From Hydractinia symbiolongicarpus (taxonomy: Eukaryota > Cnidaria > Hydrozoa > Anthoathecata > Hydractiniidae), in the NCBI RefSeq assembly GCF_029227915.1, contig NC_079889.1:3782001-3846000 (forward strand): a stretch of 64,000 bases of DNA, read 5' to 3'. Position 1 is the first letter of the stretch; the number at the start of each line of letters is the position of its first letter. A program made the position numbers and the translations under genes. Below, in pieces: positions 6,301 through 57,897 of the stretch. A model generated the notes under the pieces. That model was not told where the DNA came from. It ran no database searches and worked only from the letters and a program-made list of their open reading frames with translations.

Positions 6301-7414
6301 TGTCATCCAACGACCGAGGTACCGACAATCAGTTCAATAGTATTATCAACGTTAAACAAAAAAGTGGGGCGCAAAAATATCTTACAACAAGATGTTCTGT
6401 ATGCAGTGTTTTTGCATGAATTAATTTTAACTTGTGTTAACCTCTACCTACGTTTTGTGGCGTTAATAATCAATTTTGCATTATCCCTTGTTTCTATGGA
6501 TATAATTATTATAATTTATGTTAGTATTTTCAAGCACTTCTGAGGATTTATTAAAACAAAAAAAAAATTTTAGAACTTTAGATTTTTTAAATTTTTAGAT
6601 TTAGATTTTAAAAAGCCTTTATTTACTTTCTACTCACGAGTAGATTCTACTTTCCCCTAATTTTTGCTGACGTTAGCAATTAATCACGAAACTAAAAATG
6701 AAAAAAAGCTTTCGCTTTCCTTCGAATAGATAACAATCACTTCTGAAGTTTTTCATAAGTATTTCGCAACCTCGTTGGCCCGCCAATAACTTTTGCTTGG
6801 TTGACTTGAGTCGGCGTTACATTAATTTGATACATTAAGGCTCAGCCGACTGATTCGTAGTTGAAAAAAAATTGCAAAATAGCCTTTCCCAATTATAAAC
6901 ATCACGGAATTTTTAACATGACGTATCTGATTACTCAATTGAGGACATAAAAAAACATTCTTTAGAAAACTATTCGCTCCTGTAATTGTTGGCTTAATTA
7001 AAGCCTCATTATAACTGATTATTTATTGCCTCACCCGGTTTCTATACCAATGATTGAACTTATGGAATCATGGACTTTTTTTAAAATCATTGGAGTTAAT
7101 GAAAAGCCGTTAAGCTTACAACAAAATGCTATTACCATGTCACTATACCTTCTCTCTAAATCTCCCAAACGAAGTTTCCCGTGTGCGTTATCACTTTCGT
7201 TATCTGTTTTGTCGTTTATAGAAACCAGGCTTGTAAACAATAGCTTGACTCAGCACCACACATTGCAAAATTTGAATGACGTGTTTTCTGTATAAGTCAA
7301 CTGTAACAATTAAACGTAATTAATAGACAAGAAAGAAATATATTTGTTGATGTGTTGCTGTTGATTTCAGCTGGCTAAAAATTTTTTTTGATACGATCAG
7401 TTAGTTAAAACGAA
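3352..7414. other. intergenic, no supported gene
   Basis: About 4 kb of AT-rich DNA. A 128-codon ORF at 6157-6543 has a basic N-terminal half and a hydrophobic C-terminal half. It has no recognised motif and no splice context, so I do not call it. A possible 5'UTR splice acceptor for the bZIP gene (TGATTTCAG) lies about 45 bp before its proposed start codon. Confidence 0.4.
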
Positions 7415-12192: not shown

Positions 12193-13225
12193 TCAATTTG
12201 ATTCGTTAAAATCCTTGTTTTAAAGAATAATGAAATTTGGACGATAAGAAAGCATAAACTTCTGCCATGTGATCATACTGTGTTTACCAAAAAGCAGAAG
12301 AACGCAATAAGGATTGAGCTTCGCTTCACATTGAAAAACTTTAAGTATAAACATTTAAGGGCAAACGTGACATCCTGTTTGTCATCTCTTTGTGTAAGAT
12401 ACACGTTTAAAGTTGTAGCAATTTTGGGTGGAATTTGAGTTATTATCAACGACACCGCATATAGGCGAAGTTTCTTTTTAATCATTCTATACTTCCTTTT
12501 TTATAATCAATATGTTACCTAAAAGCAACATGGGGCTAAAATCTTTCCAAAAAAGAGAGCACGTTGTTAGCAACAAAATACAGAATTATAAACAACATTG
12601 AAAGTCAAAGTTTTGTGGGTTTTTTTAAGCAACAAGGTTTATCCAGCATGCATTGCACCTTTAGTTATAAGTAAATGGTTTGATAACCTTAAAAATCATT
12701 GTAGTTCCATTCCAGTTGTTTTTTAGGTTTTGCTTACTGCGTACTAAGAAATTATATGAGTTTTTAAAAGACATTGTACGATAGAATGAGTTTATTTATT
12801 TGGTTTATTTATTTGTTTATCACGATAGATGTAAATATTATAGTTGAAGAGCGGAATATTGCACACATGAAAATATTAGGGTAACTACAGTTGCCTAATT
12901 ATTTATTTTTTACCTTCATAACCTATCAGATTTCCAATTTTCTCCTCATAAACATTGTCTTATAAGAACAGTCGGATAAAAGGAACCCTTTAAATGTTCT
13001 TAACTTTCTTATTTTAAAGCCTCAAAACGTTCTTAAATTTTTTCTTATTTATTTCTCTTATTTTAAAATTTTAAAGTTTAAAGGAGCCTTTTAGTACTTG
13101 TTGGTATTAAGCCTTAAATGTTCTTAACATGTTCCTTACCTTTACTTCTAAAGCCATATGTTCTTATATGGTTTGTTCTTGTGACAAAAAAATATTAGCC
13201 ACTTTTCTTAAACTGCTTTTAAAGG
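12193..13225. other. 3' flank of the bZIP gene and intergenic DNA
   Basis: Presumed 3'UTR, then AT-rich DNA with several TTCTTAA-containing repeats between about 12980 and 13150. No coding sequence seen. Confidence 0.5.
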
Positions 13226-13445
<220 letters not shown>

Positions 13446-14849
13446 GCCAGACAAGCAATTTTCAGACATACACCGCATCGTTTTAATTTATCGGTGCATG
13501 AAAACATTATTTCCACGGCTTTCTTTTGCTCCTTTGATATCTAAGCAACAGAACATGTTAATAGACCGGCGAAGTCCCTGGGAACGAAGTTTTCATTCAC
13601 CGGAAATAACAAAGTGCCCATTCATACGTAAATAATGCAAATTTAAATCTGTTGAATCAATCTGAAATTCAGCGGACATAATATTTCCAGATACTTCTTA
13701 GACTACACCAAGTTAGCAATCATACTAGATCCCTAACACCAAGTACATAGGAAGTATGCATTACTTCCTGACATGAAATGAATTGTTTTGCCTTCACATG
13801 AAAAAGTTTGATTTCGAAATTCTTACTGAACACCTTAACCTTAAAGAAAATTTGTTTATTGTGCATCTTATACGATCCACTATGTGGCTACAGACTGAAC
13901 AGAAATTATCTCATTAAGTCTAACAGTCCGCATGACAATTGAAAGCAACGTGTGTGAGAGCTATTTGCAGGGGTGTTGAATAGGTTAAAAAATTCGTGAC
14001 ATTCCACTTTTTTCTTGCTACTGGAAGATGTGGAAAGCTTTATTTTCGTGAAAAGAACAAAAGTTTGATTTTTGTACATTTCATTGGAGTTGGTGTTACG
14101 AGTAACACTACGATGGAGAGCATGCCGAAGACAAGTGCGAAAGAAGAATTGTAAGTGGCATTATTATTGAAATAGATTATGTAACAGACGTGTCCTTAGC
14201 TTTTCACATTTTGTTAGAAAAATTTATTCTTTTTCATTATAACATTCAATACATGGAATCACAGTTCCGATATTTACTTGCGCACGCATCTAAGTGATTA
14301 CGTAATGCCCGATGCGCGCGCAGAAATGGAGGTTAAAATGTAAACAAACTAAGAAAAAACATGGCACTATGATTGAGTGTATTGATCTAAAATATATTTT
14401 TTCATTAGTGTATAAAATATATAAATGGCAAATTAAGCAAATATGAAGTCAAATGTTAAAAAAAAAAAAAAAATAAAAACCATTTTTGAAACAAATCATA
14501 TCATTTCTCCGAAACCTAACTCCCGCTGTTTGAGATTTTCAGATAAAAGAAAAACACCCTGGAGACGAGGTTGAGTCATTAAATTTTTTTTAACCTGAAT
14601 TTTAGGGGTCATTACATTGCCACACAAAAAGGTATGACCCAAAATACTTTCCCCTATAATAAGATAAAAGTCATCATAATCTCATCACGATGAAATTCGA
14701 TATTTCTCTTATAAAAATCATACTTTTTTAATTTGGGCTTGATGATTCTTAAAAAAATTGACATTTTGCAGTAACTGCTAGTATGCCTATACTTTACTAT
14801 AAAAACTTTACTATAAAAAATAAAAAAGCGAAAAATAAATGAAAATACA
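13446..14849. other. intergenic with one candidate first exon
   Basis: At 14113-14150 an ATG opens 12 codons plus 2 bases (MESMPKTSAKEE) and ends at a consensus donor GTAAGT. It could be the first coding exon of an unidentified + strand gene. Its phase does not fit the acceptor just before the glycosyltransferase start codon. The rest is AT-rich and contains a poly(A) run near 14459-14474. Confidence 0.35.
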
Positions 14850-16086
14850 ATAACATTATTTAAGTATTTATTGGCTACGGTAAAATGGGACGACGTGGTA
14901 AAAGCAACGGATGCAAATGAAGCATATGATAGCTTTCTGAAAATTTTTTTGGAAAGTTATGATGCGGCATTTCCAGAAGAAATTAAGTTTATTAAGACCA
15001 AAACATTCTTTAATCCCTGGATGACTAGGGGCCTACAAAAATCTTCCCGAAGAAAACAAAAACTATATGAAAAGTATTTAAGAAAGAAAACCTACAGGAA
15101 TGAAACACTGTATAAAAATTATAAAAACCTTTTTGAATTGATAAAAAAGCGTGCTAAGAATTTTTACTTCAATGAACAAATTAATAAATACAAACATAAT
15201 GCAAGAAAAACATGGAATTATAATCAGGGAAGTGATTGGTAAAATAAAAATTAGAAGTAATAATTTTCCTTCAAAACTTGTAAACGACGAAAATGAAATT
15301 GAAGAACCATCTTTGATAGCTGAAGAATTTAACAATGTTTTCACTAAAGTGGGGCCGACCCTGGCGTCGAAAATAGGTCACAGTGCAAAATCCTTTAGAT
15401 CGTATTTGTTATATCACGATAATGAAATAGAGAAAAAAGAGCTAAGTGAGGAGGAACTAGAAGCAGCATTTCATTCTTTGCAAATCAACAAAAGTCCTGG
15501 CTTTGATCAAATCAGCAGCAATGTCTTAAAGAACTGTTTCAATGAACTAAAATCTCCACTACTCCATATATTTAATTCATCTCTAATTAAAGGCATTGTT
15601 CCTAAAAAGTTAAAAATAGCTAGAGTTGTCCCAGTCTTTAAAGCAGGAGAAGTTTGTAAAGTATCTAACTACAGACCAATTTCAATACTCCCTTGCTTCT
15701 CGAAGATTTTGGAGAGAATCATGTACAACAGAGTTTATTCTTTCTTGAACAATAACGATATTTTGTATAATAAGCAATTTGGATTTCAAGCAGGTCATTC
15801 AACTGATCACGCAATCATTCAGTTAAGTCAGGAAATATTTCAAGCCTTTGATGAGAATAAATTTACAATTGGGGTCTTTATTGATCTCAGTAAGGCATTC
15901 GATACAGTCAACCATGAGATTCTATTAGAAAAACTAAAATACTATGGCATAAGAAATACATATCTCGCATGGTTCAATAACTACCTCTTCGAAAGAAAAC
16001 AATATATTTCTTATGACGAAGGAAATACTAACTACAGGATTATAACATGTGGAGTACCTCAAGGGTCAATTTTAGGGCTTTTTTGA
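14850..16086 (+). mobile_element. LINE (non-LTR retrotransposon) fragment, broken reverse transcriptase
   Basis: The first frame (about 14850-15242) encodes the linker that usually sits between endonuclease and reverse transcriptase in CR1/L2/Jockey-like LINEs (NPWMTRGLQKSSRRKQKLYE). A single-base frameshift near 15210-15225 moves the reading into a second frame ending at 16086. That frame carries RT hallmarks: NKSPGFDQISSNVL, VPVFKAG then NYRPISILPCFSKILERIM, GFQAGHSTDHAI, FIDLSKAFDTVNHEILLEKL and GVPQGSILG. It stops just after the last motif, so the catalytic F/YADD box, thumb and 3' end are gone. The endonuclease is missing too. A dead internal fragment; exact clade is inference. Confidence 0.88.
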
Positions 16087-16867
16087 AATTTCTGATTGAA
16101 ATTTCTGATGTCAAAAAAGCGAACAGAGGTCTAGGGAACAAGGTTGGTTTATAACCCATAATACAAAATGGTACACTTTTTTTTAAGAAATTTTTACATA
16201 AGGATGACTAAGGCTTAATTCCTAAAATTTTAAGAATGTTTAAAGAATAAGGACAAGGCTCAGTCATCTTAACCATAATATACATTTCATCAATTTTTAT
16301 ATCTGTTTTAAATAATTTTAAATAGTTTTCGAATAATTTTAAGAACCACTTTAAGAATTACCTAAAAATGCTTAAAATGTTGATTTTCCAAATGGATTTC
16401 TAAATATACAGCATTCCATGCCAGTTCTCACACTTAATTGCACAATACTGCATACTCTCTAAAATTTAGGAAATAAAGTCTTGGTAATTCTAATGCAGAA
16501 AAAGTTTGTTAATGCTGATCGCAGATTTCTTCGGATTATATAATCAAGAGAAACGGTCCTGCAGTTATGACACGCCCTGTAGACGTGATCTAAAAAAAAC
16601 TCTTAACTTTCGCAATACCATCATCCTTATGATACCTAGCTACGTGGAAAATATAGAAAAACTTTTATCTTTGGAATTGAAATGAATATCGAAGATCAAT
16701 AAGCGTATTCACACACATACGAACGAAATGGTTTTTAAGAAATATTTAATTTATATATTCAGAGTTTATATATTCATGCAAAAGAAATATAAAAAAGAAT
16801 GGTGAAATCACCATCTGTGACAAAGACCTGGTTTCTATGCATTTGTGAAATAGAAAAATGTCAAAAA
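16087..16867. other. intergenic, AT-rich
   Basis: TTAAGAA-rich sequence from about 16180 to 16390. No gene recognised. Confidence 0.4.
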
Positions 16868-17448
16868 CGTTCGTTCGTTCGTTCGTTCGTTCGTTGGTTC
16901 GTTCGTTCGTTCGTTCGTTGGTTCGTTGGTTCGTTCGTTCGTTCGTTCGTTCGTTCGTTCGTTCGTTCGTTCGTTCGTTCGTTCGTTCGTTCGTTCGTTC
17001 GTTCGTTCGTTCGTTCGTTCGTTCGTTCGTTCGTTCGTTCGTTCGTTCGTTCGTTCGTTCGTTCGTTCGTTCGTTCGTTCGTTCGTTCGTTCGTTCGTTC
17101 GTTCGTTCGTTCGTTCGTTCGTTCGTTCGTTCGTTCGTTCGTTCGTTCGTTCGTTCGTTCGTTCGTTCGTTCGTTCGTTCGTTCGTTCGTTCGTTCGTTC
17201 GTTCGTTCGTTCGTTCGTTCGTTCGTTCGTTCGTTCGTTCGTTCGTTCGTTCGTTCGTTCGTTCGTTCGTTCGTTCGTTCGTTCGTTCGTTCGTTCGTTC
17301 GTTCGTTCGTTCGTTCGTTCGTTCGTTCGTTCGTTCGTTCGTTCGTTCGTTCGTTCGTTCGTTCGTTCGTTCGTTCGTTCGTTCGTTCGTTCGTTCGTTC
17401 GTTCGTTCGTTCGTTCGTTCGTTCGTTCGTTCGTTCGTTCGTTCGTTC
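16868..17448. repeat. GTTC tetranucleotide array, about 145 units
   Basis: About 581 bp of tandem GTTC. A few variant GTTG units are confined to the first 65 bp (near 16895, 16920 and 16928); after that the array looks perfect. Because the unit is 4 bp, every forward frame reads Phe-Val-Arg-Ser and every reverse frame reads Asn-Glu-Arg-Thr without stops. The long ORFs on both strands are therefore artefacts. Each unit adds one CpG, making this by far the densest CpG cluster in the window. Confidence 0.98.
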
Positions 17449-17906
17449 TCCGGCCATCAAAGTTCAAATTAAAAACAACGACCGTCGATCAGAAATTCAC
17501 CCTACTTAACACTTTCTGATGCAACTATATAGCTTTGCACAAGAGTAATTTCTAGTAATTAAGTGGGTGACCATGTTGCCATGGTTATTCATTTACATGT
17601 AATACCTTAGAGATATTACTAGAAAGATTAACCACCGTATCAGCTTAAAGAAAATTTGGAACAATGGATATATATATATTTTATAATGCAACCTAACTAA
17701 GTTATATAATTAAATCATTTAAAATTATTGTTTTCCATGAATATGATTATAATAATTCTATGCTTTATAAACAACCTATGCTTCGATAAAAAACGTTTGT
17801 CAACTCTGTAGTGTATTGTGTGAATCAAACAGTTTGCAGTTGTTGCCTAAAATAAAAGAACCTTTTACAGGAACTTTATTAAGAAAAAGAGGTATTCGAT
17901 TTTTAA
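17449..17906. other. upstream region of the glycosyltransferase gene
   Basis: AT-rich. An acceptor-like TTTTACAG ends at about 17870, so a 5'UTR intron or trans-splice site is possible. A TAA stands directly before the ATG at 17907 in the same frame, which fixes that start. Confidence 0.35.
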
Positions 17907-18971
17907 ATGGTTGCTAAAAAGGCAAGTAGCTCCTGCGAGAAGAACGTTCAAGCGATAAGCATAGCATTCATATTATCAACGTGTATAAGCGTGCCGTATT
18001 GGATCATCAGCACTTATTCGTCTTCCGAAAAGTATTACTTGCAATTCAAGAATGTCTATATTAACATACCATCGGAAACACCGGAAAATAAGGCTGGAGT
18101 TATGATCCATATAGATAACAGCGTTACTACGTCAAAAGGTTATATCGCTAAACTTAACGACGACGTTCTATCAAGTTTCTGCTCCAAAAATTATTCTGGC
18201 AAAAAAGGAGGAAAAGTTTTATCCTACACCTTGTATGGTGGCTGGGCAAAGAATCCGCACTGGATTGGTATGATGCATAAAATAGCTGAAGAAGCCAGAA
18301 ATTCCACTATCTATCGAGACTGGACCCTTAGATTGTACCACAATGGTGATATACCAAAGATAAGACGAAAGCAACTGGAAGAAAGAAATAAAAACCTGCA
18401 GTTATGTGATGTAAACTACATACCACATTATGGTAACTTAAGCCATTTGAGCAGCATGGAATGGAGATTACTATCTTTTGGGGATAAAACCCTAGATATG
18501 GCATGCTCCCGTGATATTGATAGCCCGTTGTGGCAAAGAGAATTTGATGCCATTGCACAGTGGATTAAAAGCGGCAAGGCATTCCATTGTTTTCGCGATC
18601 ACCCGCAACACGGAGGATGGAGAGTGTTAGGAGGAATGTTTTGCTTCCGAATTTCCAAAGACAAAATCCTTTCGAATCAGTTTTTTAGGGCGATATGGGA
18701 TAATTTTAATATCAAGAATGGTACTCGTGAACCTAGAAAGGAGTCCGACCAGCATCTAATACGGAAGTACGTTTGGCCAGTCGTCAAAAATGATGCAATG
18801 GAACACGATTCGTACAGCTGTGATAGATACCCAGGTTCGATACCGTACCCTAGCAGACGATTAACGAATACTAGTGGATTTATGGGTTGCAAGCGACCCT
18901 GTGTTAGAGAATTGCCTCCTTGTCCCCGTAAATGTCGGCCAAAGAATCACCAGGATTGGACATATTGTTAG
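17907..18971 (+). CDS. predicted type II membrane glycosyltransferase, single exon
   Basis: 354 residues without introns. A short basic N-terminus is followed by one hydrophobic segment (residues about 16-35), giving the type II topology usual for Golgi glycosyltransferases. Residues 104-148 (LSYTLYGG... then WTLRLYHNGD) fit a nucleotide-sugar-binding fold. The core is SRDIDSPLWQRE at 201-212, with an Asp-x-Asp pair, then an FHCFRDHPQHGG-type segment at 226-237 and LGGMFCFR. From memory, this D-x-D-S / RE / RDHP-x-H / GGM order is characteristic of a family of uncharacterised GT-A-like proteins found in bacteria, large DNA viruses and marine invertebrates. The C-terminus (about 326-354) is rich in Cys and Pro (C-x3-C, CPRKC), suggesting disulfide bonds in the lumen. 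Donor and acceptor cannot be told. The lack of introns beside intron-rich neighbours fits retroposition or old horizontal transfer, both inference. Confidence 0.75.
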   Translation: MVAKKASSSCEKNVQAISIAFILSTCISVPYWIISTYSSSEKYYLQFKNVYINIPSETPENKAGVMIHIDNSVTTSKGYIAKLNDDVLSSFCSKNYSGKKGGKVLSYTLYGGWAKNPHWIGMMHKIAEEARNSTIYRDWTLRLYHNGDIPKIRRKQLEERNKNLQLCDVNYIPHYGNLSHLSSMEWRLLSFGDKTLDMACSRDIDSPLWQREFDAIAQWIKSGKAFHCFRDHPQHGGWRVLGGMFCFRISKDKILSNQFFRAIWDNFNIKNGTREPRKESDQHLIRKYVWPVVKNDAMEHDSYSCDRYPGSIPYPSRRLTNTSGFMGCKRPCVRELPPCPRKCRPKNHQDWTYC

Positions 18972-37900: not shown

Positions 37901-40900
37901 GAGAAATAAAATTTAGTGAGTGGAGTCATCTTTTGTATTAGTTAGTTAATGCATAACTATGCACAAATTTTGTGGGACAAATCCCCCTCTCCCACTGTTA
38001 AATGAGTGTCTGTATCCAAAATTAAGTGTTGAAATTCATATATCTATTTTATTGGCGGCATTGAAAGAGGAGACGAAGGATAAACTACAACGGCTTTAGG
38101 GCGACACAAAAATTCTTTTGGTCAATTTTATGAAAAGTTTGCTATGAATTTAGTTGAAGGTTGTAGAGACTACTTTAATATACAGATTCTATAATGGTGG
38201 TAGAAATTTCTAACATATTAAAATAATTATAAATTAATGTGAAACATATTTTTATTATCTCAATACCTTTTTAAGGCAATCGACGCTGATAGTGCTGCGT
38301 TTGGTAAAGTATCATATAGAATTATCAAAGGGAATGAAGAAAATCGTTTTCATATCGAGCCCTTAACAGGACAGTTGAAGGTCGCAGACGCGTTGGCAGC
38401 CTACTCTGGTCGATTTGAGTTGGTAATTGAAGCTTATGATAATCTTGGTAACAAGCCTTCAAATATATGTAATGGGTCCGCCGTTGTTCAAGTGGCCATT
38501 GTATTAGGAGAAAACAGTGTTGTACTTACCATGCAAAAAAGAGTGGCAGATGTTTTACCACACCAAGAAAAAATCATCAGGTGAGTGAGAGCAAAGTAGT
38601 AATCGGTTTAGATCTATGGAATTCCACATTAGGTGAAGTTTAAATTATTACTCTTATAAAATTCTGATAATGTTAAGAATTCTTAAGTGTCAAATTACCA
38701 AAGCTACTCGTCCGAATTATATGAGTATAACCTACGTATCTTTTACTTTCAGTGCACTAAAGAAGATCTTAGGGATTGGTGTCGTTAAAGATAACATTGA
38801 GATAGGAGAGCAATCAGACAGGTAAAAGGTGTTACCGTTCCCTAGAGCTGTTTTTATTCTACCTAAAATTCTCACGTATAATCGGTGTTTGGGTGGAATG
38901 CTTAAAATAAGCAGAGCATATTTAAACTATGTTAATAACAATTCTAAATTGCTGTATTATATCAATACTAGTGATTCCCCTTGTAAAATATTTTGTGCAT
39001 TTTTATTATAATACGAGCGGGCTGTAGCATCAGTAGATTTGCACGCATGAGCGCACAGAATAATTCCTTATTATGGAGAAGTAGTTGCTAGCCTGTAAAA
39101 AACCCCACGAGAAGCATTAAAAATATAGCGTTTTTGTTATTTCGGACGAACAATTTTCGTACTTTCTTAACGCAAAGTGATAAACACAAAGAAGTATTTA
39201 AATAATAATTTTTCATCTTCGTTTAGTACTAACTTTATTTTCCATGGATACAATGAAAACACGGAAGCCGTCGTTAAAAAGGAACAAGTCATAAAGTAAG
39301 GAATCATTTTCTTTTTAACTAGGAAACCCAGCCTGATTTCTCCTATCATCGGGAAACCAGTTAAGTGAAGATAGAAAAAGTCGAAAACAAATTCTCTGCG
39401 CCAGAATGCCGACCAAGCTTTTTTATTGGTTTATTTTTATTGTACTTTGATCACGTAAACAAAATCAGAAAAGCCTTATTTTCAATGTATTGAAAAAATT
39501 GCTTCACTCACCCAAACAAATATTTCAATAATTCCTAAGCTATTTTAGAAAACAAGATGTGAACGCGCTGGTCTTAGTGCTCATTCATTGATTTGAATTC
39601 AAGCTTTGCTTTGTAGACTGAATATTTTGTATGTTTTATTATGTTATTTTGCGTAGGACTTTGAAAACAACTACAAGTGAGGAGATGGTTAAATTTCGCA
39701 TGCAATGGAACATAACCAGATTGTTTGAATTAGCAAAAATAACAAAGTTAGAAGACAACGCAAAGAAAGAAGAAGAGAAGAATTCTGACAAATGGCATCC
39801 TATCATATACGCTGTGTTGGGATTTTCAGCATTGATTGCAATTTTCGGAATGATTGGAATCGTATATCTGATAAAATCAAAGCGAAGGTAAAAAATATTT
39901 TTTTTTATATTGATTTTCATCACAGAAGAGATATGACTCGATTTACGTTTAAATTTTAGGCACCCTCCCTTTCCTTTGTTCCCCATCATATTCTTCATGG
40001 ACGAAAATATTATTGGATTTTTTTATTTAAAAAGTAGTCTTAAGCGCGTGGAAAAGTCAGAGAGATTTCACTCCCTCCCTTCAGACAGACAGCATATGAC
40101 GAACTTTATAATATAGATCTCTGAAATCCCAACACGCAAAAATTCACAAACAAACAAACGCATCGATTCTGGATAGTCAATGGTAAAAACACGTAATTTC
40201 AGAAACATATTGCCATACAGCTTTTACTTAAGTATTAATACAGCTTGTATTTAAGTACGGTAAACCCACGCCCCCTCCCCCTCTCCCTCTAGACTATTTC
40301 ATACCTAAAATATTTAGTTTAAATTTAGTTAAAGCTTTTTTTTTTTGGATTTTTGGATAACCCTGTTATTCTACAACAAAAATAATTGTAATGCAAAATT
40401 TTGACAATTAATTCTTTAGAAATGAATTTGACGGTGGTGCTTCGCAAGCCTCGTCCCGAATTCCGATAACAGCTCGAAAATCAAGAAACTTTTGGTGAGT
40501 GTTGCTTTTAACTCTAAACATGAATGTCGATAAATATACTTGATAAACACCGTCAGGGCGCGGGGCGGAATTTGCACTTTCTCCTCCTAAATAGGATAAG
40601 GGGAATTTTTTTCAGAAATTTTCGCAAGACCTAGCCAAAAAAATCAGGTTATCGCATTTGTTTGAAGTAATTTACCTACTTATTACAGGAACGATGATGC
40701 ATTTGAATCTGTATCACAAGGCGTTCCTGATTCTTATGTGCACTCATCCGGATTTCTAGACAGATCATGTGATCGATATGAATTAGATCCAAGCAATATG
40801 TATGGCTCACAGGTAATGTTAATGCTTAACTTAATCTTTTATCCATTTCTAAGGTAAAAAAAACTTATAGAGTGCACCTAAAGATATTTCAAAGAGAAGG

Positions 40901-45605: not shown

Positions 45606-48600
45606 TTAATACTGATTATAACAAATTAAGCAATAATCATTCATAATCGCTTTACAAGTTGATTTAAAGGTAAGTTTACCATTACCAATTCTCTCACGCA
45701 ACTTTCCAAAATCAATTTGAATGCCTTTGAATTTCTTTAATACGTCTTTTTGTAAATCGACACATGTCTCGTTTTGACCATGCACTATTTGACGAATTAT
45801 TGGAGAAGATTCTTCCAGATTCTTGCTTTCTTTCGGTATAGTACCAACAGCGATTTTAGGCGTACATGTGTTGTTCGGACTTGCTACGTATGCTATGATT
45901 AACTGCTTAAGCTTGTTGTTCCCTTTAGTGAATTTCATATGAGTAACGAAATTTCCATCGAAAGATTCAAAATGATTGAAGGGTTGATCCAATAGGTTTT
46001 TTACCAGAATAATGTCATTTTCAATGAACAGTCCTCCCATATTATAAAGTAATAGCATTTTAGCGAGCGGAAGATGTGGACACGATATTAGGCCAGTTAC
46101 TTTTACAAACTCACTCACTTGACGTATATCTGCCACTTCTGCCAATTCAGATAATTGGTATTTTCGGACGGTAATGTTGAAGCCAACTTCTGTTAGTGGA
46201 TCGAAGATACTTTTCTCAATGGAATTACTCCAAATGGTCAGATTGGAGAGAGGATGGTGATATAAAACCGCCTCAATTACTCGTGTATGGTACAAACGTA
46301 ATTTTTCGTTATTCATTTTATTATCGTAAAACAAATGAATATTTAACAGAGCCGTTTTATTTAGCTTTTGTTTTACATATAAAGGTGGTATAATACCGAA
46401 TTTGATAGCGTTATCGTATATAATGGGATCTCGACGGAGATAGCTCCACTGCCGTGCTCGATATACCATTAACAAGTCAACTCTGGGATTTGGAGGAGGA
46501 TTATGCCAATTAAATGCTGCCGACATCTCTTCAGGTTTAGCTTTTCGGTAAAAGTCAATAGTGTGGAATAAGTCGGTTAAGCCTGCGATTCTTTCTGAAG
46601 GACCAGAAGCTGTTCCACCCCCACCAGGTGCTTTCGCAGAATTTATAAATACCACCGGAGTACCCATTGCCACGCAGGGTAAAGCAGCGTGAATTCTTTG
46701 CGTGACAACTAGCTTCGCTTTAGCATACATGTCAATTCTCTCGTAGGCGTATTGAAAAAGCTTCTTTCTTGTGCATTTAGTGCAGTCTTGGAAGTGAGAG
46801 ATGATTTTATAATTCGTACTGTTTGGAACGAGATGTAAATTTTTGTCCAAAACATCAACAACATAAACATCACTCGTTCGGTCTTCTTGTTCATATCGAT
46901 TCTTGATGAGTAATGTTGCACACGCTGAAAAGAACGACTCGATTTTGTTAGACCGAAAGAACTTCAAGGAATATGGATCACGGGCACCGACTGCTTCCCG
47001 CTCTAACAAGTAAGAAATATTGCGAATGAACTGACGATGTATCGTAGGCTGTGTGTGCATGGAAAGTAACTGCGGAACAAATAGTTTATTTGGTGGCCAG
47101 AGCTGATACGGTTCTCCCCACCAAGCGTTGAAAAACATCATCGTAGATTGGGTGTAGTTCTTAGGCAACGTGAGCTGCCCACGATCAACAAGTGTGTCAA
47201 TATACGGTAGCAATTGTATTCCAGTAAATGACTGGACCTCATCACCTACATTAACACTCATTACTCCACCGTGAATCTTACGTGTCATCGTGGCATAATG
47301 TCGAAGAGTTGTAAATACAATGGTGGTTCTCTTTAAATTTTCCACTTCTGTTTCTTTGATTTCATCTTTTGAATTCTTATAGTTTTTGTAAAACACATTT
47401 GAGTTGTTCAGCATGTCGTAATACACAGGCCATATTTTTGATGAATTTAGCATCGAAGCTTCTACGGTAATGTGCTTTGATAACCTTCGCACAAAGTCAT
47501 GTTGCTTAGGGAAATAACAGATGTCTAGGAAATCCACATCTTTATTTGCAGCTATCCATGGAAAGTTCTTTGAAATTGGGAATGAAGTGTCTTTGAAATT
47601 ATAAAATGGATCAATATACAAACCCCCGAAGCGATAAAGCAGGGAGAGTCTTGTAATATGCTTGAGGTATTCTTCAAAGTGTTTACCAGATAAAAACTTG
47701 ATTAAGATAAACTTTTTCATCCATTCAAAAAAAGGTGTTGCTATTATGACTTTGTTCAACTCAAAGAATGTTATCTTGACATTTTCGGATTGCCATGCTT
47801 TGAATTTATTCATGCATTCTGCTGAGCTGCAAAATATTTCAAATGTAGAGGTTTTGTACTTCATTGCAATGTTTTCCATATTCCGTAGCGCACTACCTGG
47901 TACAGGTTGTGTATATAACCAGAGTGTGAAAACATAATCGGGCACGTATAGTTCTTTTAATGAAGCTGAGTTAACCTCTCTATTTGCCTTTTTCAATGGT
48001 GTTCCAGTGTTAGTTATTTCTTTTTGGTCATTTACTTTTTCGATCTTAATTTTTCTTAAATCCTCTTGATTTCCATTCAAGTGAGTTGACACTGAGACCT
48101 TGTCACTAGGGTAGGCTGTGTAAATACGCATATTGACTTGTGGCATCCCTTTAAGTATAATTCCGGAATTGTACATTGTACCTAAAATGATTAGCAACAT
48201 GATGACGATGAAAATGTTGTGTTTCTTGGTCAATGTTAATTGCGCTCCGTTAATTCTGCTTATGTAAGTAAAGGCTATTAAACCGAGTAGTAAAATTGCC
48301 AGTCCAATAAACATTTTATCCGACAATGTCAAAGAGAAATGAACTATGTTAACGGTTACTACTACAGCTCTTTTGCATAGATTTAGAACTGCGTGTGTGA
48401 TTGGTGACACACTTTGTAAGACATTAATTGAGGCAAGATTGTAGACAAAGTGAAAAAACACCGAAATGGATGAAGTATAGCTGACCAACATAAATCTGCC
48501 GTCCATGATCATTTTTCCAATAAGTACAGGGAAGGTTATGGCAAAACTAAAAATTGACAACGTTGTGTATTTTTGAAGTGGATCCAAGTTGTCGGAAGTC

Positions 48601-51412
48601 TTTAAAAATATATTGCGCAGGGAGAATCCAATGTTGGAGGTAACTGCAGCGGCAATTCCGCTTAGATTGGAGCGGTGATCTTCCTTTAAAAACATTGAAC
48701 TGCCCAGACATATAGTAATAATGGATAGCAATGTCAACATGTTAAGGTCCGACCTCGATTTCGAGAAGAAGAAGAATGCAAATGTAAACGTAAATATCGG
48801 TTCCATTGATTTTACCACTTGTACTGAGCTTGATCCAATCATCGAGAATGCTATGTTGGTGGCGCTATTACCAATGGTATTTGCAATTGATGCTATGTAC
48901 ATTGACTTTCCACTGTTGCTTGAGAATTGCACAGGTGACTTTAGTTGTAGATAATACTTTCCCCACAGGAAACCTAATATACCACCAAACCCACTTTGCA
49001 TTGTAGTCAGTTCTAACCAATGGCTTGTTCTTGAAGGTTGGCTGTCAGTTGTAGTGACATTTTTGTTGGCTGATCTGTTGGTCAGAGCTTCTTTGGAAGC
49101 AATCGAAGACACAACATTGCTGAACCACCATATGGCAACCAGTACAACGACCTTTAGAAAAATCGAACTGCTGTTGTCAAGGAGGTTCTTCTTAGATGAC
49201 CTTAATTAAAGAAAGGTTATTATTAAAGGAGATTTTTAGATTGTTTACCCTCTAGTAGGGCAGGGAAAGTGATGAAAAAGCTTACGAGGTAAATCTCCGC
49301 CAACAAAGTTTAAGAATTTTTAGTAAAAAAGAACACTTTTCACTGATACTACGTAATCATTTGAGGTGCCTGCAGTCACCAACAGACAGACCAAGACCAC
49401 TTAACACAAAATAGAGCTCGGGTGGCCATTATCTCTTTATCTTTCCAGTACTTTTTCAAAACCGAATTTCAAAAGTTTTCGTGAATTTCTAATAAGAGCC
49501 TCTGCACTAGTGATAAACTTTGAATAGTTTAAAGCCATGCCCAGATTCAGTAAGAAACCAGTATATGAACCCAGTAAGCCATGCGCTTTAAATTCGACGA
49601 TAGATTTAGATAATGTTTGGAACTATACTCAGATCTGATAAAAACATTGCTAAATAGTTAGAGCTTGTTGTTTTATATTTTGCTTTCCAATATCATAAAA
49701 ACGATAAGGTTCAAAGGAAAATTATTTCAGTTTTATTTTGGTTTTATGCTGAGCGGCCCTCCTCATGTAAGTGTAAAACTTATAAGTTTTTTACCCTAAA
49801 ACCTAACGCGATGAAGGTTACAACTACTTTGTTATGTGCCTTCTACCTCTTCTAAGACTTGCTTTAGTCAATAAACCCATGAAAGAGTCCGCTCAGGCAG
49901 GTATGTTTTTTAATTTTGACGTCAACACAATTCCGTCGATGAAAAAGATTTTTTTTTTCACAATTCTTTCAACCACTTTTCCGTATTGTGTAGAGTAGGG
50001 TTGCCATTGTTACTAGAATGAGATTCTTTAATAAAAATATTAAAATTAAAATCTTTACGATTTTTTTTACAATCCCGCTATTGTTATCCAAGAATCTTAT
50101 CTAGCTAGTAAGATAGATCTATTAGATTATATTGTCAAGGCATTGCCATGATATTGTTATTATGGCATTTACAAAAGTACAACTAATTTTTAACATAATA
50201 AAAACTTTTGAGCGTGGCGGTTGTTTTTTTTTCAACTAATTGAGTTAAAAAAGCTACGATAATAAGAGAAAAAATGGTAGAATTAGCTGTGCGCGTCCGA
50301 GTTAACTTTAAAACCATAACGTATGTTAAGATAGAATAAATAGACAGAAAACTTTTCTTTCGTCCAGCTATAAGTTAAGGAACAAAAAATTCTGCAAACA
50401 ATCATTCGTTCGCAATTTTTGTGGTTTAGCTAAATGAAACAAGTCTTAACAAGGAAAGTATTAACAAATCTGTTCTTTTTAAACAAAACAAGTTACTGAC
50501 TTTTACAATTTGTAATGATTCACCTCTGTAATTTGGTGTTGTATATCTTTTTGCATCACAAGATGTTTAACGATAATTTATAAAGCCTACTAAACATTAA
50601 AGCTACTTATTTTTGTCATTTTTTTATTGTCCAACTAAGCTTCAATGGACTTGTTTATAAGTAAGAAATTGTTTTGATCAAACCAAAAGTTTACAGATAA
50701 CGTTAGCAAATAAAGTAGTCTTTTTCCTTAGGAGTTTCAAATAAATAATGAAAAAAATAAGACATGTCACTCTAAATCTGGATTAATATTCTTAAGGAAA
50801 AAAATTGTGAACATTGGACCCCAAAGAGTTAATGAAAATGTTTTTCTTAATTTTTTAGAGTTTTCAAAGTACAAAGCTAAATTTTAAAGACGCACAGCTT
50901 ACTCATTAGCTATTTGCTTATCAAATACAAAGTGTGCTAAAAACCGATGAATAATTTGGGAGAGTTAAAAAAAGAATAAAAATATAAATAAACCAATAAA
51001 AATACATCAATCATCAAAAGTCAAAAACATTGATAAACACGATTTTTTATGCTGGCCTCAAACGTTTTTCTGCGCTAAACGGAAGTGTTAAGTTCTTTCT
51101 TTAGCCTAGTTGTAAGCTCGTGGTTGCAGCTACCATCTACCAGTGTGTCATCTACCATCTACCAGTGCGCATTTTGATATTGTGATATTTATAAGCAACA
51201 ACATAGGTAACTCAACTTTTTCTATATCAATAGAAAATCATGACATAATAAATCGTGCTTTTTCAGATAACACGCTGTTTTACTGATGAAATCTTTTAAA
51301 ATCTACCTTATGATTTAGCTACCAGTGATTTTACACAGAGGCACTAAGAAACACTAAAAGTAATTAACAAAATATAAATAAAAATATTTTCTTACTTGTT
51401 AAGAAGCATCAT
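45606..51412 (-). CDS. TPT transporter - glycosyltransferase - pyruvyl transferase - glycosyltransferase fusion
   Basis: The 3.6-kb exon 49200-45606 has no ATG before its first helix, but an acceptor (TTAATTAAG) ends at 49201. A 17-nt first coding exon, 51412-51396 (ATGATGCTTCTTAACAA then GTAAGAAAAT), matches its phase, giving 1203 residues. Order: ten helices of a TPT/SLC35-type carrier (19-320); an eleventh helix (335-351), which would place the rest in the Golgi lumen; a GT32-like domain (about 426-560) with RFGGLYIDPF at 529-538; a polysaccharide pyruvyl transferase domain (about 647-895) with NVGDEVQSFTGIQLLPYIDT and, at 840-858, QRIHAALPCVAMGTPVVFI; and a second GT32-like domain (about 960-1080) with LLYNMGGLFIENDI. 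The TPT family moves sugar phosphates, nucleotide sugars or PEP; pyruvyl transferases use PEP to put ketal pyruvate on glycans. Activity and substrates are inferred. The GT motifs are partly degenerate (single D; E-N-D), so one or both may be inactive. Confidence 0.85.
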
Positions 51413-53686: not shown

Positions 53687-53827
53687 TGTTGCACTATACC
53701 ACTATTACGGCTACCATTTTGATATATAATAGTTTGTTTATATATATGTCGGTCACGGCAATTCGGTAACACGTTTGTAGTACGAATTAAGATGGCGTCT
53801 AGTTTCTCATCCTTCTAAGTTGTAACT
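53687..53827 (+). repeat. 5' LTR
   Basis: Starts TGTTGCACTATAC and ends AAGTTGTAACT, so it has the usual TG start but not the usual CA end. I set the end from the point where the two LTRs stop matching and from the GGAT duplication. Very short for a gypsy LTR. Confidence 0.92.
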
Positions 53828-53840
53828 TGGTGTCAGAAGT
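53828..53840 (+). other. primer-binding site
   Basis: TGGTGTCAGAAGT follows the 5' LTR directly. From memory it matches the primer-binding site of many metazoan gypsy elements. Which tRNA primes is not determined here. Confidence 0.6.
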
Positions 53841-53844
53841 AAAA

Positions 53845-56409
53845 ATGAATACATCACATAAACGACCAGAATTGAAGTTAACTGGCAACATATCTGAAAA
53901 TTTCAAGAATTTTGAACTTAGATTCAATGACTATTGCATTCAGTCGAACTACAGAAATTTAGAGAAAGACTCACAAACTGAGCAAGCAGAACATTACAAG
54001 CAACCTTTGTTGGAGATCTCTGCACTGAGATCTTCAATGCCAGATGAAGCTCTCCAGGTGATACGTTATACCATTGAGCCATCCATTCCAGTAGATGATA
54101 AGAAAAAACCGTGGATTTGGATGAATCGTCTACGCACACATTACACAGGAACAACAGGATCTACCCTAATGACTGATCGGTTCAAATTCTGGCATTCGTC
54201 CCAAAATCAAGATGAGACAGTCCAGGATTGGGAGGTCCGAATACGACAAGCCGGAAGCCTGTGTGAATATGGAGAAATTACAGACATTATGTGTCGTGAT
54301 AAGTTTGTCTTTGGACTTTGTGAGGACACAGCACGAACTGAACTGTTAAAAACACATCTGAGAACAGATGGCACACAGAAAACAATGTCAGATGTAGTCG
54401 CAGAGGCCAAGTCAATGGAATCTGCTCGAGTGACAAACAAACTCATCAGTGATGCATCAAAAGGGACAGAAGAGAATGTTCACTGGACAAAAGCAACAAT
54501 ACCACCACAACAAAGGAAGAAACACAGAGACATGAAATTGAGACGTGAGCCAAATACTTGCCACTGGTGTGGAGACAATAAAGGACCACATCCTTGGGCA
54601 ACTTGCCCAGCTAATGGACGTAAATGCACAAGGTGTGGTGGATTTGACCACTTTGCAAGAGTATGTCTAGAACAACAAAATGTCAGCCACCTTGGCAACA
54701 AGGGATACAACAGACCCAACTACAACAGAAGAAATAACCAACGTCCTCCACAACCAAACAGCAATCCGCAGGGTATGCAAAAGTCGACCAACCACCTTCA
54801 TGCAACATCAACATATCATCAACCAGAAAGCAGAACAGAATCACCTGAGCAGCAACAACCAACATACTACACTGATGAACAAGTCCTTGACTCGAAGGAC
54901 ATGATCGGAAAGCCAGCTCTCCTTTCCGGTAAAGACTGTGTAAACATGAACATCATGACAATCAACACAGGGGATATCTACTCTCTGCAACAGCAAGGCA
55001 ACCTGAATCAGCCAACTACCACTAGCCAACCAAAAACACATGTTTACAAAACAAAGCCAATAGATACAACCCATCCGCTGACCAAGGAGTCATTAATTGA
55101 ATGCTATAAAGATAGCTTTAACGGTGTTGGCTGTCTCCAACCACCAGTATCATTCCGGGTAAAAAATGATGTTACACCAGTTCAAATGCCAATTCACCGA
55201 GTACCACTGAGCAAACGTGGGAAAGAAAAAACAGCTATAGACAGATATGTCAAAGAAGGAATACTGGAAAAAGTGACACAACCAACTCCATGGTGCTCAA
55301 ACATACTTTGCAGAGAACAACCAAACAAATTTCGTGTATGCATAGACCCCAGCCAAACAATAAACAAAGCAATAGAACGACCTGTATACCAAATGCCAAC
55401 ACTGAATGAACATCTACACAAACTGAACAATGCAAAATGTTTCACATTAATTGATGTAAAGGATGGGTATTTTCACGTGCCGTTAGATGAAAAATCATCA
55501 GATATGACAACAATGCACACTACCTATGGACGTTATCGATGGAAAAGACTTCCATTTGGCATCAACAGTGCTCCAGAGGAATTTCAAATGAGACTCATGA
55601 CAGCGTTAGAAGGACTAGAAGGTATCGCACACATAGCTGATGACATCATAGTATATGGTTGTGGGGAAACATACCAGACAGCAGAAAGGGATCATGACAA
55701 AAATCTCATTGCACTAATGGAAAGAGCTAGAACCAAGAACATTAGATTCAACCCAGCAAAACTCAAATTCAAGCAGAAAGAACAGAAATTTGTAGGACAC
55801 ATTCTTACACAAAATGGCATCAAAGCTGATCCGGAGAAAACTGATGCCATCCTACAGATGCCAAAACCACACGACAAAAAGAGCCTGCAACGCTTCATTG
55901 GAATGGTCAACTACTTATCACCTTACTGCCAGAACTTGAGCACTGTCATCCGGCCATTGACTGAAATAACAAAAACAGACATGGCGTTTACATGGTCTTC
56001 AACACAACAGACTGCATTTTCAGATGCTAAATCACTTATAGCATCTACACCTGTCCTACAATACTTTGATCCAGCTAAGAAGGTGATACTCCAGGTTGAC
56101 GCAAGTGACAATGGTCTTGGAGGAACACTTCTACAAAACAACAATCAAGAACAGTTACAACCAGTCGCATTCACGTCTTGTACTCTCACTGAAACTGAGA
56201 GAAGATACTCTCAAATTGAGAAAGAGTGTTTAGCTATATGTAATGCATTCTCCAAGTTTGACCACTGGCTGTACGGACACAAAAACATTGAAGTACATAG
56301 CGACCACAAACCTCTGGAAATCATCATGAAGAAGCCACTCAACCGAGCACCGGCACGACTTCAAAGAATGCTATCCAGACTACAGAGATACCAATTTACG
56401 GTAACCTAA
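53845..56409 (+). CDS. gag-pol of the LTR element, first part (gag, RT, RNase H)
   Basis: Open from ATG 53845 to TAA 56407-56409. The gag part ends in two zinc knuckles (54559-54666): C-x2-C-x6-H-x4-C and C-x2-C-x4-H-x4-C. Then a protease remnant: the piece around 54908-54938 (GKPALLSGKDC) resembles the end of a retropepsin, but no Asp-Thr/Ser-Gly active site precedes it. RT follows, with LIDVKDGYFHVPL, LPFGINSAPEEFQ and the catalytic IADDIIVYG (Asp-Asp at 55639-55644). RNase H has LQVDASDNGLGG and HSDHKPLE. The TAA falls in the normally continuous RNase H-integrase linker. Confidence 0.9.
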   Translation: MNTSHKRPELKLTGNISENFKNFELRFNDYCIQSNYRNLEKDSQTEQAEHYKQPLLEISALRSSMPDEALQVIRYTIEPSIPVDDKKKPWIWMNRLRTHYTGTTGSTLMTDRFKFWHSSQNQDETVQDWEVRIRQAGSLCEYGEITDIMCRDKFVFGLCEDTARTELLKTHLRTDGTQKTMSDVVAEAKSMESARVTNKLISDASKGTEENVHWTKATIPPQQRKKHRDMKLRREPNTCHWCGDNKGPHPWATCPANGRKCTRCGGFDHFARVCLEQQNVSHLGNKGYNRPNYNRRNNQRPPQPNSNPQGMQKSTNHLHATSTYHQPESRTESPEQQQPTYYTDEQVLDSKDMIGKPALLSGKDCVNMNIMTINTGDIYSLQQQGNLNQPTTTSQPKTHVYKTKPIDTTHPLTKESLIECYKDSFNGVGCLQPPVSFRVKNDVTPVQMPIHRVPLSKRGKEKTAIDRYVKEGILEKVTQPTPWCSNILCREQPNKFRVCIDPSQTINKAIERPVYQMPTLNEHLHKLNNAKCFTLIDVKDGYFHVPLDEKSSDMTTMHTTYGRYRWKRLPFGINSAPEEFQMRLMTALEGLEGIAHIADDIIVYGCGETYQTAERDHDKNLIALMERARTKNIRFNPAKLKFKQKEQKFVGHILTQNGIKADPEKTDAILQMPKPHDKKSLQRFIGMVNYLSPYCQNLSTVIRPLTEITKTDMAFTWSSTQQTAFSDAKSLIASTPVLQYFDPAKKVILQVDASDNGLGGTLLQNNNQEQLQPVAFTSCTLTETERRYSQIEKECLAICNAFSKFDHWLYGHKNIEVHSDHKPLEIIMKKPLNRAPARLQRMLSRLQRYQFTVT

Positions 56410-57897
56410 AAGAAAGGAACCACACTCTACATAGCAGACACCCTATCCAGAGCACCACTCACCAAACCTTCTACAAACACAATAAATGCCTTTGAAGTAT
56501 TCCGCGTTGATACAGAGTCAGAGTATCCACAACACCACCATCAGCTCAAAAACGACACGGAAATGAACATCCTATCAGCTACGAAAAATGACCCAACCTT
56601 TCAACGGCTCTACACCCTGATACAAAGAGGATGGCCAGATGAACCACAACAACTTGATCAGGATCTCAAACCATACTGGAACTTTAGAGACGAACTGTCC
56701 ATCAACAATGGTTTTATATATAAAGGACACTGTACCATGATACCAAACGGACTGAGAAATGAAATGCTTCAGAAAATACATACCAATCACATGGGTGCAG
56801 CTTCCAACACGAGAATGGCAAAAGAAGTACTTTTCTGGCCAAATATGGCAAGAGACAATACTAACATGTGTCATGACTGCTCCGATTGTGCAAAATACCA
56901 AAGATCAGCATCTAAAGAACCGATGCGATCAATTCCTGTTCCGTCACTCCCTTGGCAAATTGTTAGCCAAGATCTGTTTGAATACGAGAATAAGGACTAT
57001 CTGGTCACAGTATGCCACTTCTCTGACTGGATTGAAGTTGATCACTTACCAAACACCCTTGCCTCTACTGTTGTAAGGCACACCACAGCACACTTTTCGC
57101 GTTATGGGATCCCTGAAATATGCCATACAGACAATGGACCACAGTTCATCAGCAATGAGTTCAAGAATTTCGCCAAACAATATGGCTTCCACCATACTCG
57201 CTCTGCTCCATATTACCCAAAAGGGAATGGGCGTGCTGAAGCTGCAGTCAAAGTTGCAAAAAACATGCTTAAAAAGTCTCAAGACTTCCAAATAGCGCTT
57301 CTAAACTACAGAAATACTCCGCAACAGGGACACTTGAGTTCCCCTGCACAAAGAATGATGAACCGAAGAACCCGAACTATGCTACCAACCTCAAAGTCTG
57401 CACTTTTACCATCACCCATAGACGTAGCCAATACAACACAACAGATAATTGACAAACGAAGAACAGCCAAGGAAATATACGACCGTCATTCAGGACCGGT
57501 TCACGACAAACCAGACGTTGGCACATACGCATATGCTAAACCACCTCCACAAAAACGGGGACAACCATGGACGTATGGACGAATAATCAGAAAAAATGAC
57601 ATGTCGTATACCTTGCAAACACCACAGAATACCATTATCACAAGAAACCGGGTTCACATCAAACCAGCGGCAGCACCATCCGGGCCACTGAGCATACATA
57701 AAACTGTCATCGTACAACCTCAACATACCACAGTCAAACCACGGTTGGATCAAATAACACCTGCACACAATCAAGCACCTATAACCCATGTAGCACGACC
57801 TCTTCCATCTGAACGACCACGCAGCAGTCCACAAGCAAAGCAAGCCTCAATCGAAGATTCGTCCATTATTGACTCAGACTCACTTTTCTTTTGTTAA
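56410..57897 (+). CDS. pol remainder of the LTR element (integrase), after an in-frame stop
   Basis: The same frame resumes after the TAA and runs to 57895-57897. The first ATG is at 56563, but this piece would normally be made as part of the polyprotein. It contains an HHCC-type zinc-binding region (HTNHMG ... CHDCSDC) and the integrase triad: Asp codon 56971-56973, Asp in HTDNGPQF (57130-57132) and Glu in GRAEAAVK (57238-57240), with D-x35-E spacing. A basic, Pro- and Gln-rich C-terminal extension follows. The triad is intact. Confidence 0.9.
   Translation, partial: KKGTTLYIADTLSRAPLTKPSTNTINAFEVFRVDTESEYPQHHHQLKNDTEMNILSATKNDPTFQRLYTLIQRGWPDEPQQLDQDLKPYWNFRDELSINNGFIYKGHCTMIPNGLRNEMLQKIHTNHMGAASNTRMAKEVLFWPNMARDNTNMCHDCSDCAKYQRSASKEPMRSIPVPSLPWQIVSQDLFEYENKDYLVTVCHFSDWIEVDHLPNTLASTVVRHTTAHFSRYGIPEICHTDNGPQFISNEFKNFAKQYGFHHTRSAPYYPKGNGRAEAAVKVAKNMLKKSQDFQIALLNYRNTPQQGHLSSPAQRMMNRRTRTMLPTSKSALLPSPIDVANTTQQIIDKRRTAKEIYDRHSGPVHDKPDVGTYAYAKPPPQKRGQPWTYGRIIRKNDMSYTLQTPQNTIITRNRVHIKPAAAPSGPLSIHKTVIVQPQHTTVKPRLDQITPAHNQAPITHVARPLPSERPRSSPQAKQASIEDSSIIDSDSLFFC

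Follow-up and report, generated by a model that had tools for sequence, protein, structure and literature searches.

In fission yeast the pyruvyl transferase Pvg1p and the phosphoenolpyruvate (PEP) carriers Pet1p and Pet2p are separate proteins (PMC4872226). In mammals, nucleotide sugar transporters are reported in complexes with glycosyltransferases, and a coupling of donor supply and transfer was proposed for them (PMC9368800). Pyruvylated glycans are known from few animals, namely in an adhesion proteoglycan of a sponge and in a glycolipid of a sea hare (PMC6994554, PMC6801904). Neither an animal pyruvyl transferase nor a carrier-transferase fusion of the kind described below was found among the matches listed in the open-access literature, which is weak evidence of absence. 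The present analysis concerns 64,000 nucleotides of the Hydractinia symbiolongicarpus genome (contig NC_079889.1, positions 3,782,001 to 3,846,000; this whole stretch is referred to as the window). Its minus strand harbors a gene at 45606..51412 in which a TPT-type carrier part is joined to a polysaccharide pyruvyl transferase domain flanked by two glycosyltransferase-like segments. Our best explanation of the whole, to which we give about even chances, is a real fusion gene for a secretory-membrane carrier with a lumenal PEP-using pyruvyl transferase. Each of the domains is already known; their combination is new as far as could be seen from the literature search.

All domains and the stop codon belong to the main exon (45606..49200, minus strand, as are all features of the gene given below), a single frame of 1199 codons. 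In the list of open reading frames it runs from stop to stop over 49205..45606, and the residues of the window protein are counted from 49205. Given the base composition, the probability that 1199 codons stay open from any one start is ~8e-37. The putative first coding exon comprises 17 bases (ATGATGCTTCTTAACAA, 51396..51412) and is followed by the donor GTAAG, the phase 2 of which fits the acceptor at 49200; the inferred phase-2 intron (49201..51395) terminates in CCTTTCTTTAATTAAG. Together with the main exon the short exon would give a protein of 1203 residues, as read from the splice sites. This model, put forward in an earlier note on the window, was reproduced with this exon, donor and acceptor, and the order of parts given there (TPT, eleventh helix, GT32-like segment, pyruvyl transferase, GT32-like segment) was borne out by Pfam and hydropathy.

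The assembly from which the window comes (window at C15:3782001-3846000) comprises 480,894,487 bases in 76 contigs. On contig C11 it carries one further gene in which the parts follow in the same order, with 1138 open codons and no stops. The carrier-enzyme fusion is a real gene for a single polypeptide, since the arrangement recurs in this second gene elsewhere in the genome, on a different contig. The two proteins share 36% identity across their alignment; the value is highest in the pyruvyl transferase domain (46.4%), followed by the first (34.2%) and the second glycosyltransferase-like segment (32.1%), and lowest in the N-terminal and TPT part (28.8%). In Pfam the paralogue exceeds the cut-offs for PS_pyruv_trans (45.9 bits), TPT (35.1 bits) and Gly_transf_sug (27.5 bits), the last in one stretch only, which is the second segment (E 5e-6). 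Directly before the first helix of the paralogue lies a phase-2 acceptor (TTTTTTCTTAACAG), matching in position that of the window gene, and a short first exon may be present there as well. The proportion of differing synonymous sites (pS) between the copies is near saturation (0.75–0.82), while that of nonsynonymous sites (pN) is 0.33–0.48 per segment measured, the stem being not alignable. The duplication is therefore old and the measured segments are under purifying selection. A search of the genome for family PF04230 gave two matches, both of them these fusions; such a search ignores introns and scores the best candidates only, so that a split gene could escape it.

The pyruvyl transferase domain extends over residues 630–905 (46491..47318) as judged by alignment with bacterial relatives, and PF04230 matches it at residues 720–855 (E 9.5e-13, 49.1 bits against a cut-off of 25.3). 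Profile alignment with the Pvg1p structure 5ax7 over 44 positions places Arg837-Ile-His839 (46689..46697) on the PEP-binding Arg337-Leu-His339 of Pvg1p, which corresponds to Arg306 and His308 of CsaB; the triplet is kept in the paralogue. Arg742 of the GARD motif (46980..46982) is the likely counterpart of Pvg1p Arg217 and CsaB Arg148 and is identical in the paralogue and in all 12 rows of the bacterial comparison set (L001–L012, matches over the pyruvyl transferase domain), as is Asp655 in the 12 bacterial rows. Both residues were assigned to Arg217 and Asp106 of Pvg1p from motif and position rather than by a residue-wise match. The predicted structure of the domain has a Pvg1p-like GT-B fold, with Pvg1p as the top match in both Foldseek searches and in the realignment. 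A sequence search of PDB with the enzyme part alone gave no match up to E 10. The pyruvyl transferase domain claimed earlier thus agrees with the PF04230 score, the residues of the PEP site and the predicted fold, and the domain probably carries out the pyruvyl transferase step.

The carrier part (residues 18–310, 48276..49154) matches PF03151 over profile positions 2–288 of 291 (E 6e-28, 98.5 bits against a cut-off of 30) and the GsGPT structure 5y78 (E 5e-13). In the alignment with GsGPT the pocket residues Lys278-Arg279 (48369..48374) correspond to Lys273-Arg274 of the GsGPT chain. The pocket residues named for the plant TPT are His184, Lys203, Phe262, Tyr338, Lys359 and Arg360 (PMC6981301). 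When transferred via 5y78, with the counterparts placed by motif and residue spacing, they fall on Asn113, Lys132, Phe194, Tyr255, Lys278 and Arg279 of the window carrier. Consequently, the phosphate-binding Lys132, Lys278 and Arg279 as well as Tyr255 are all kept, and these phosphate-holding residues would be as needed for an exchanger of an organic phosphate against phosphate. An exchange of His185 for Asn, considered as a mark of PEP transport with plant PEP/phosphate carriers in view, was dropped, as nothing in the analysis backs it.

The search of the genome for TPT gave nine matches, of which two are the fusions, one is an intronless gene on contig C6 and six are pieces, three on C2 and three on C4. 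The separate, SLC35E1-like gene on C2 has an intact Lys-Arg pair and Phe at the place of Phe194. The gene on C6 (L019, G000:C6, 1468-2397) encodes 310 residues; the pocket Lys is present and Ser replaces Arg of the Lys-Arg pair. The translations of L024, L026 and L027, probably made on the wrong strand, were left aside.

TPT carriers have both termini in the cytosol. Of the ten helices proposed for the carrier part, the near full-length TPT match is in favor, while plain hydropathy at the threshold used shows about seven in addition to the eleventh. The eleventh helix was found by hydropathy at residues 333–351 (48153..48209, hydropathy 2.27), with Lys-Lys directly before it; the LxKK sequence is conserved in the paralogue. 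Lys-Lys precedes it in both copies, and helix 11 would lead the chain into the lumen. It is followed by a stem (residues 352–420, 47946..48152) that is mostly absent from the paralogue, where 61 of the 65 residues 356–420 are gapped. Helix 11 is followed by 10 of the 14 sequons for N-glycosylation that the window frame contains, by 7 of the 10 in the paralogue and by all 11 cysteines common to both copies. This distribution is consistent with a lumenal enzyme and is not a proof of it. A topology that would put the enzyme in the lumen is supported by the sequons together with the Lys-Lys pairs.

The first glycosyltransferase-like segment covers residues 421–620 (47346..47945) and the second one residues 946–1199 (45609..46370). 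In the whole protein Gly_transf_sug (PF04488, GT32-like) matches in two stretches with 27.1 bits against a cut-off of 23; submitted alone, the segments remain under the cut-off with 16.8–17.0 bits (E 0.0096 and 0.011, respectively). The motif regions read RLSLLYRFGGLYIDPFYNF in the first and LLLYNMGGLFIENDIIL in the second segment of the window protein, and YKYGGIFVNLKYR and YNVGGVFIEQNVIV in those of the paralogue. At the DXD position the first segment has D-P-F (N-L-K in the paralogue) and the second one E-N-D (E-Q-N in the paralogue). A normal DXD is thus absent from both segments of both genes, and this lends no support to the two glycosyltransferase domains of the earlier note as working enzymes. 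Around the same motif the first segment has a local profile match to the Caps_synth domain of a Sphingobium protein (23 columns, probability 65), which reads D-A-T at this position; therefore the lone Asp532 of the window copy, Asn in the paralogue, might still count. The second segment gave no match to this domain by profile (probability 1.8). A profile search of PDB with the first segment gave only a weak match to the glycosyltransferase YeGT (E 0.56). PDB searches with each segment alone and with a two-sequence profile of the second one gave no match up to E 10. Outside the enzyme domain, the structure predicted for the entire lumenal part is of low quality (mean predicted local distance difference test score, pLDDT, 49.6), and it is not usable for the fold of the two segments. 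An internal duplication is not claimed, their mutual match being confined to the surroundings of an LLYxxGG motif. Both segments are likely derived from GT-A enzymes, and their present role may be to bind the acceptor. They have no normal DXD motifs; holding or shaping the acceptor glycan is a more likely function for them than the addition of sugars.

In the mechanism we propose, the N-terminal ten-helix TPT part and the eleventh helix would lie in a membrane of the secretory pathway, with the long C-terminal part presumably on the lumenal side. The central PS_pyruv_trans domain would bind PEP and add pyruvate as a ketal to a glycan with release of phosphate, both the activity and the acceptor being presumed, and the flanking segments would hold or shape this glycan. 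The carrier most likely would move a phosphorylated compound against phosphate, and if the compound is PEP, the same protein would both import the donor and remove the phosphate by-product. Pyruvyl transfer consumes PEP and yields phosphate, and nucleotide sugar carriers swap their donor for the spent nucleotide. As pyruvyl transfer releases phosphate, a carrier exchanging PEP inwards for phosphate outwards would close the cycle in the manner of the nucleotide sugar carriers. PEP import by the same chain as the enzyme is put forward tentatively. Equally tentative is the complete picture of a single polypeptide which is both PEP/phosphate exchanger and pyruvyl transferase, hands PEP to its own enzyme and has sugar-binding pseudoenzymes as its glycosyltransferase-like parts.

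Several observations weigh against this picture. In the enzyme domain, the similarity to Pvg1p at the sequence level is weak (E 0.01) and spans only 44 positions, and Lys858, a possible counterpart of Pvg1p Lys361 and CsaB Lys328, is Asn in the paralogue; the nearby Arg872 is invariant and occurs in all 12 bacterial rows. In the carrier, Phe occupies the position of Arabidopsis Phe262 (Phe194 in the window protein, Phe184 in the paralogue), where a small residue is expected in PEP carriers, and Asn113 stands at the position of plant His184/185. In the paralogue, Arg279 and Thr116 are replaced by Cys and Leu, respectively, with both Lys and the Tyr retained. Among the large parts the carrier shows the lowest conservation, and with 77.2 bits it stays far under the cut-off of 317.9 bits for TIGR00817, the NCBIfam model of phosphate/PEP translocators. 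The GT-B domain of PS_pyruv_trans type might instead transfer a group other than pyruvate, e.g. a sugar, with the carrier supplying a different donor. We consider this improbable: the window protein and 10 of the 12 relatives keep Arg of the R-x-H motif, its His and the G-x-R-D motif are kept in 12 of 12, and Pvg1p ranks first in both Foldseek searches and in the realignment. An artefact in the form of an assembly join, a pseudogene or chance read-through of neighboring genes is very improbable indeed. Although the first exon is predicted from sequence alone and the stem (352–420) is unconserved, a stop-free copy of the same order lies on a different contig, and in both copies one open frame spans every domain junction.

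A stronger rival, in our view still rather unlikely, is that the TPT part no longer moves PEP and is a membrane anchor, a Golgi-retention device or an exchanger of another phosphate compound, with an active lumenal enzyme fed PEP by a separate carrier. The low conservation of the TPT part (28.8% against 46.4% for the enzyme), the replacements of Arg279 and Thr116 in the paralogue and the retained Phe194 fit it, and the genome contains at least one TPT gene outside the fusions, on contig C2, in which the Lys-Arg pair is intact. On the other hand, Lys132, Lys278, Arg279 and Tyr255 are all kept in the window copy, and in the TPT part pN (0.482) is clearly lower than pS (0.769). Moreover, the carrier on C2 has Phe at the same place, so that Phe is not discriminating. 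A bulky Phe was linked to the exclusion of PEP from the Arabidopsis TPT, and diatom TPT2 homologues also carry Phe, that of Nitzschia being reported to transport PEP (PMC6981301). The diatom proteins additionally have Gln for His and Asn for Tyr and are no exact parallel (PMC6981301). Since the C2 carrier combines Phe with Lys-Arg as well, the pocket residues do not distinguish PEP from other phosphate esters as the substrate. On the import of PEP proposed in the earlier note the evidence is divided: the four kept residues fit it, but Phe194, at a position tied to PEP exclusion, and Cys for Arg279 in the paralogue speak against it.

The fusion gene is a concrete candidate for an animal enzyme of pyruvylated glycans in a species with a genome. 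If it is indeed a PEP exchanger with a pyruvyl transferase, it would be, to our knowledge, the first identified animal enzyme for such glycans. If the carrier moves PEP, the fusion would be a covalently linked form of the coupling between transporter and transferase, for which non-covalent complexes serve as the argument in Golgi glycosylation (PMC9368800), and this idea would become directly testable.

Further features were noted in the window. A cadherin repeat (PF00028, E 1.4e-11) is encoded by an exon at 38243-38581 (+), as fits an animal. The single-exon frame at 17907-18968 (+) encodes 354 residues with a hydrophobic stretch near the start and an S-R-D-I-D motif. By eye it resembles a type II membrane glycosyltransferase; no Pfam family matches it up to E 1, and NCBIfam and PHROG models match weakly (E ~0.05). 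At 53803-57897 (+) a Gypsy-type retroelement was recognized by eye from what we take to be zinc knuckle, reverse transcriptase and integrase-like motifs; a stop at 56407-56409 splits one frame into two long pieces. Two overlapping frames at 14817-16086 (+) with reverse-transcriptase-like motifs are probably, by eye, a broken non-LTR (long terminal repeat) element. A tandem repeat at 16746-17519 keeps several frames open and reads ERTN or FVRS repeatedly, and a simple repeat at 13208-13544 gives a poly-Ile reading on both strands.

Relatives of the enzyme part were searched for elsewhere. In the collection of genome contigs a first scan found none and a scan with a different alignment found ten. 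In plasmids one relative of the enzyme part was found and none of either glycosyltransferase-like segment. No relative was found in phages, nor in viral contigs scanned with the whole protein, its pieces and alignments. The Ruminococcus locus L005 has a relative of the enzyme at 3689-4903 and a second PS_pyruv_trans gene at 5557-6798 (E 8e-20), with a glycerophosphotransferase gene upstream, which suggests that more than one modification of this type is present on a polysaccharide.

L002 matches PF04230 only, slightly under its cut-off, and L003–L012 are frames of 290–600 residues with no glycosyltransferase in front, because they begin close to the enzyme. In the Sphingobium fusion of Caps_synth and PS_pyruv_trans the glycosyltransferase part precedes the pyruvyl transferase, as in the window protein; in contrast to the latter it has neither a carrier nor a second glycosyltransferase-like part. 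Plastid-type TPT carriers, e.g. GsGPT of Galdieria (5y78), and SLC35E1-like TPT proteins share with the window carrier the TPT family; the pocket residues corresponding to Lys132, Tyr255, Lys278 and Arg279 are shared with GsGPT. However, the matched GsGPT chain (329 residues) lacks an enzyme part, and the window fusion has Asn at the His184/185 position. Pvg1p, a Golgi-membrane ketal pyruvyl transferase which needs its donor carried in, resembles the window enzyme in the R-x-H PEP site and in the fold predicted here, but with ~400 residues and one predicted transmembrane region it has no room for the other parts of the fusion (PMC4872226). In the mammalian complexes a carrier and a transferase are held together as in the fusion (PMC9368800). 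Those complexes are non-covalent, consist of separate proteins and handle nucleotide sugars, whereas in the window protein the two parts are joined covalently.

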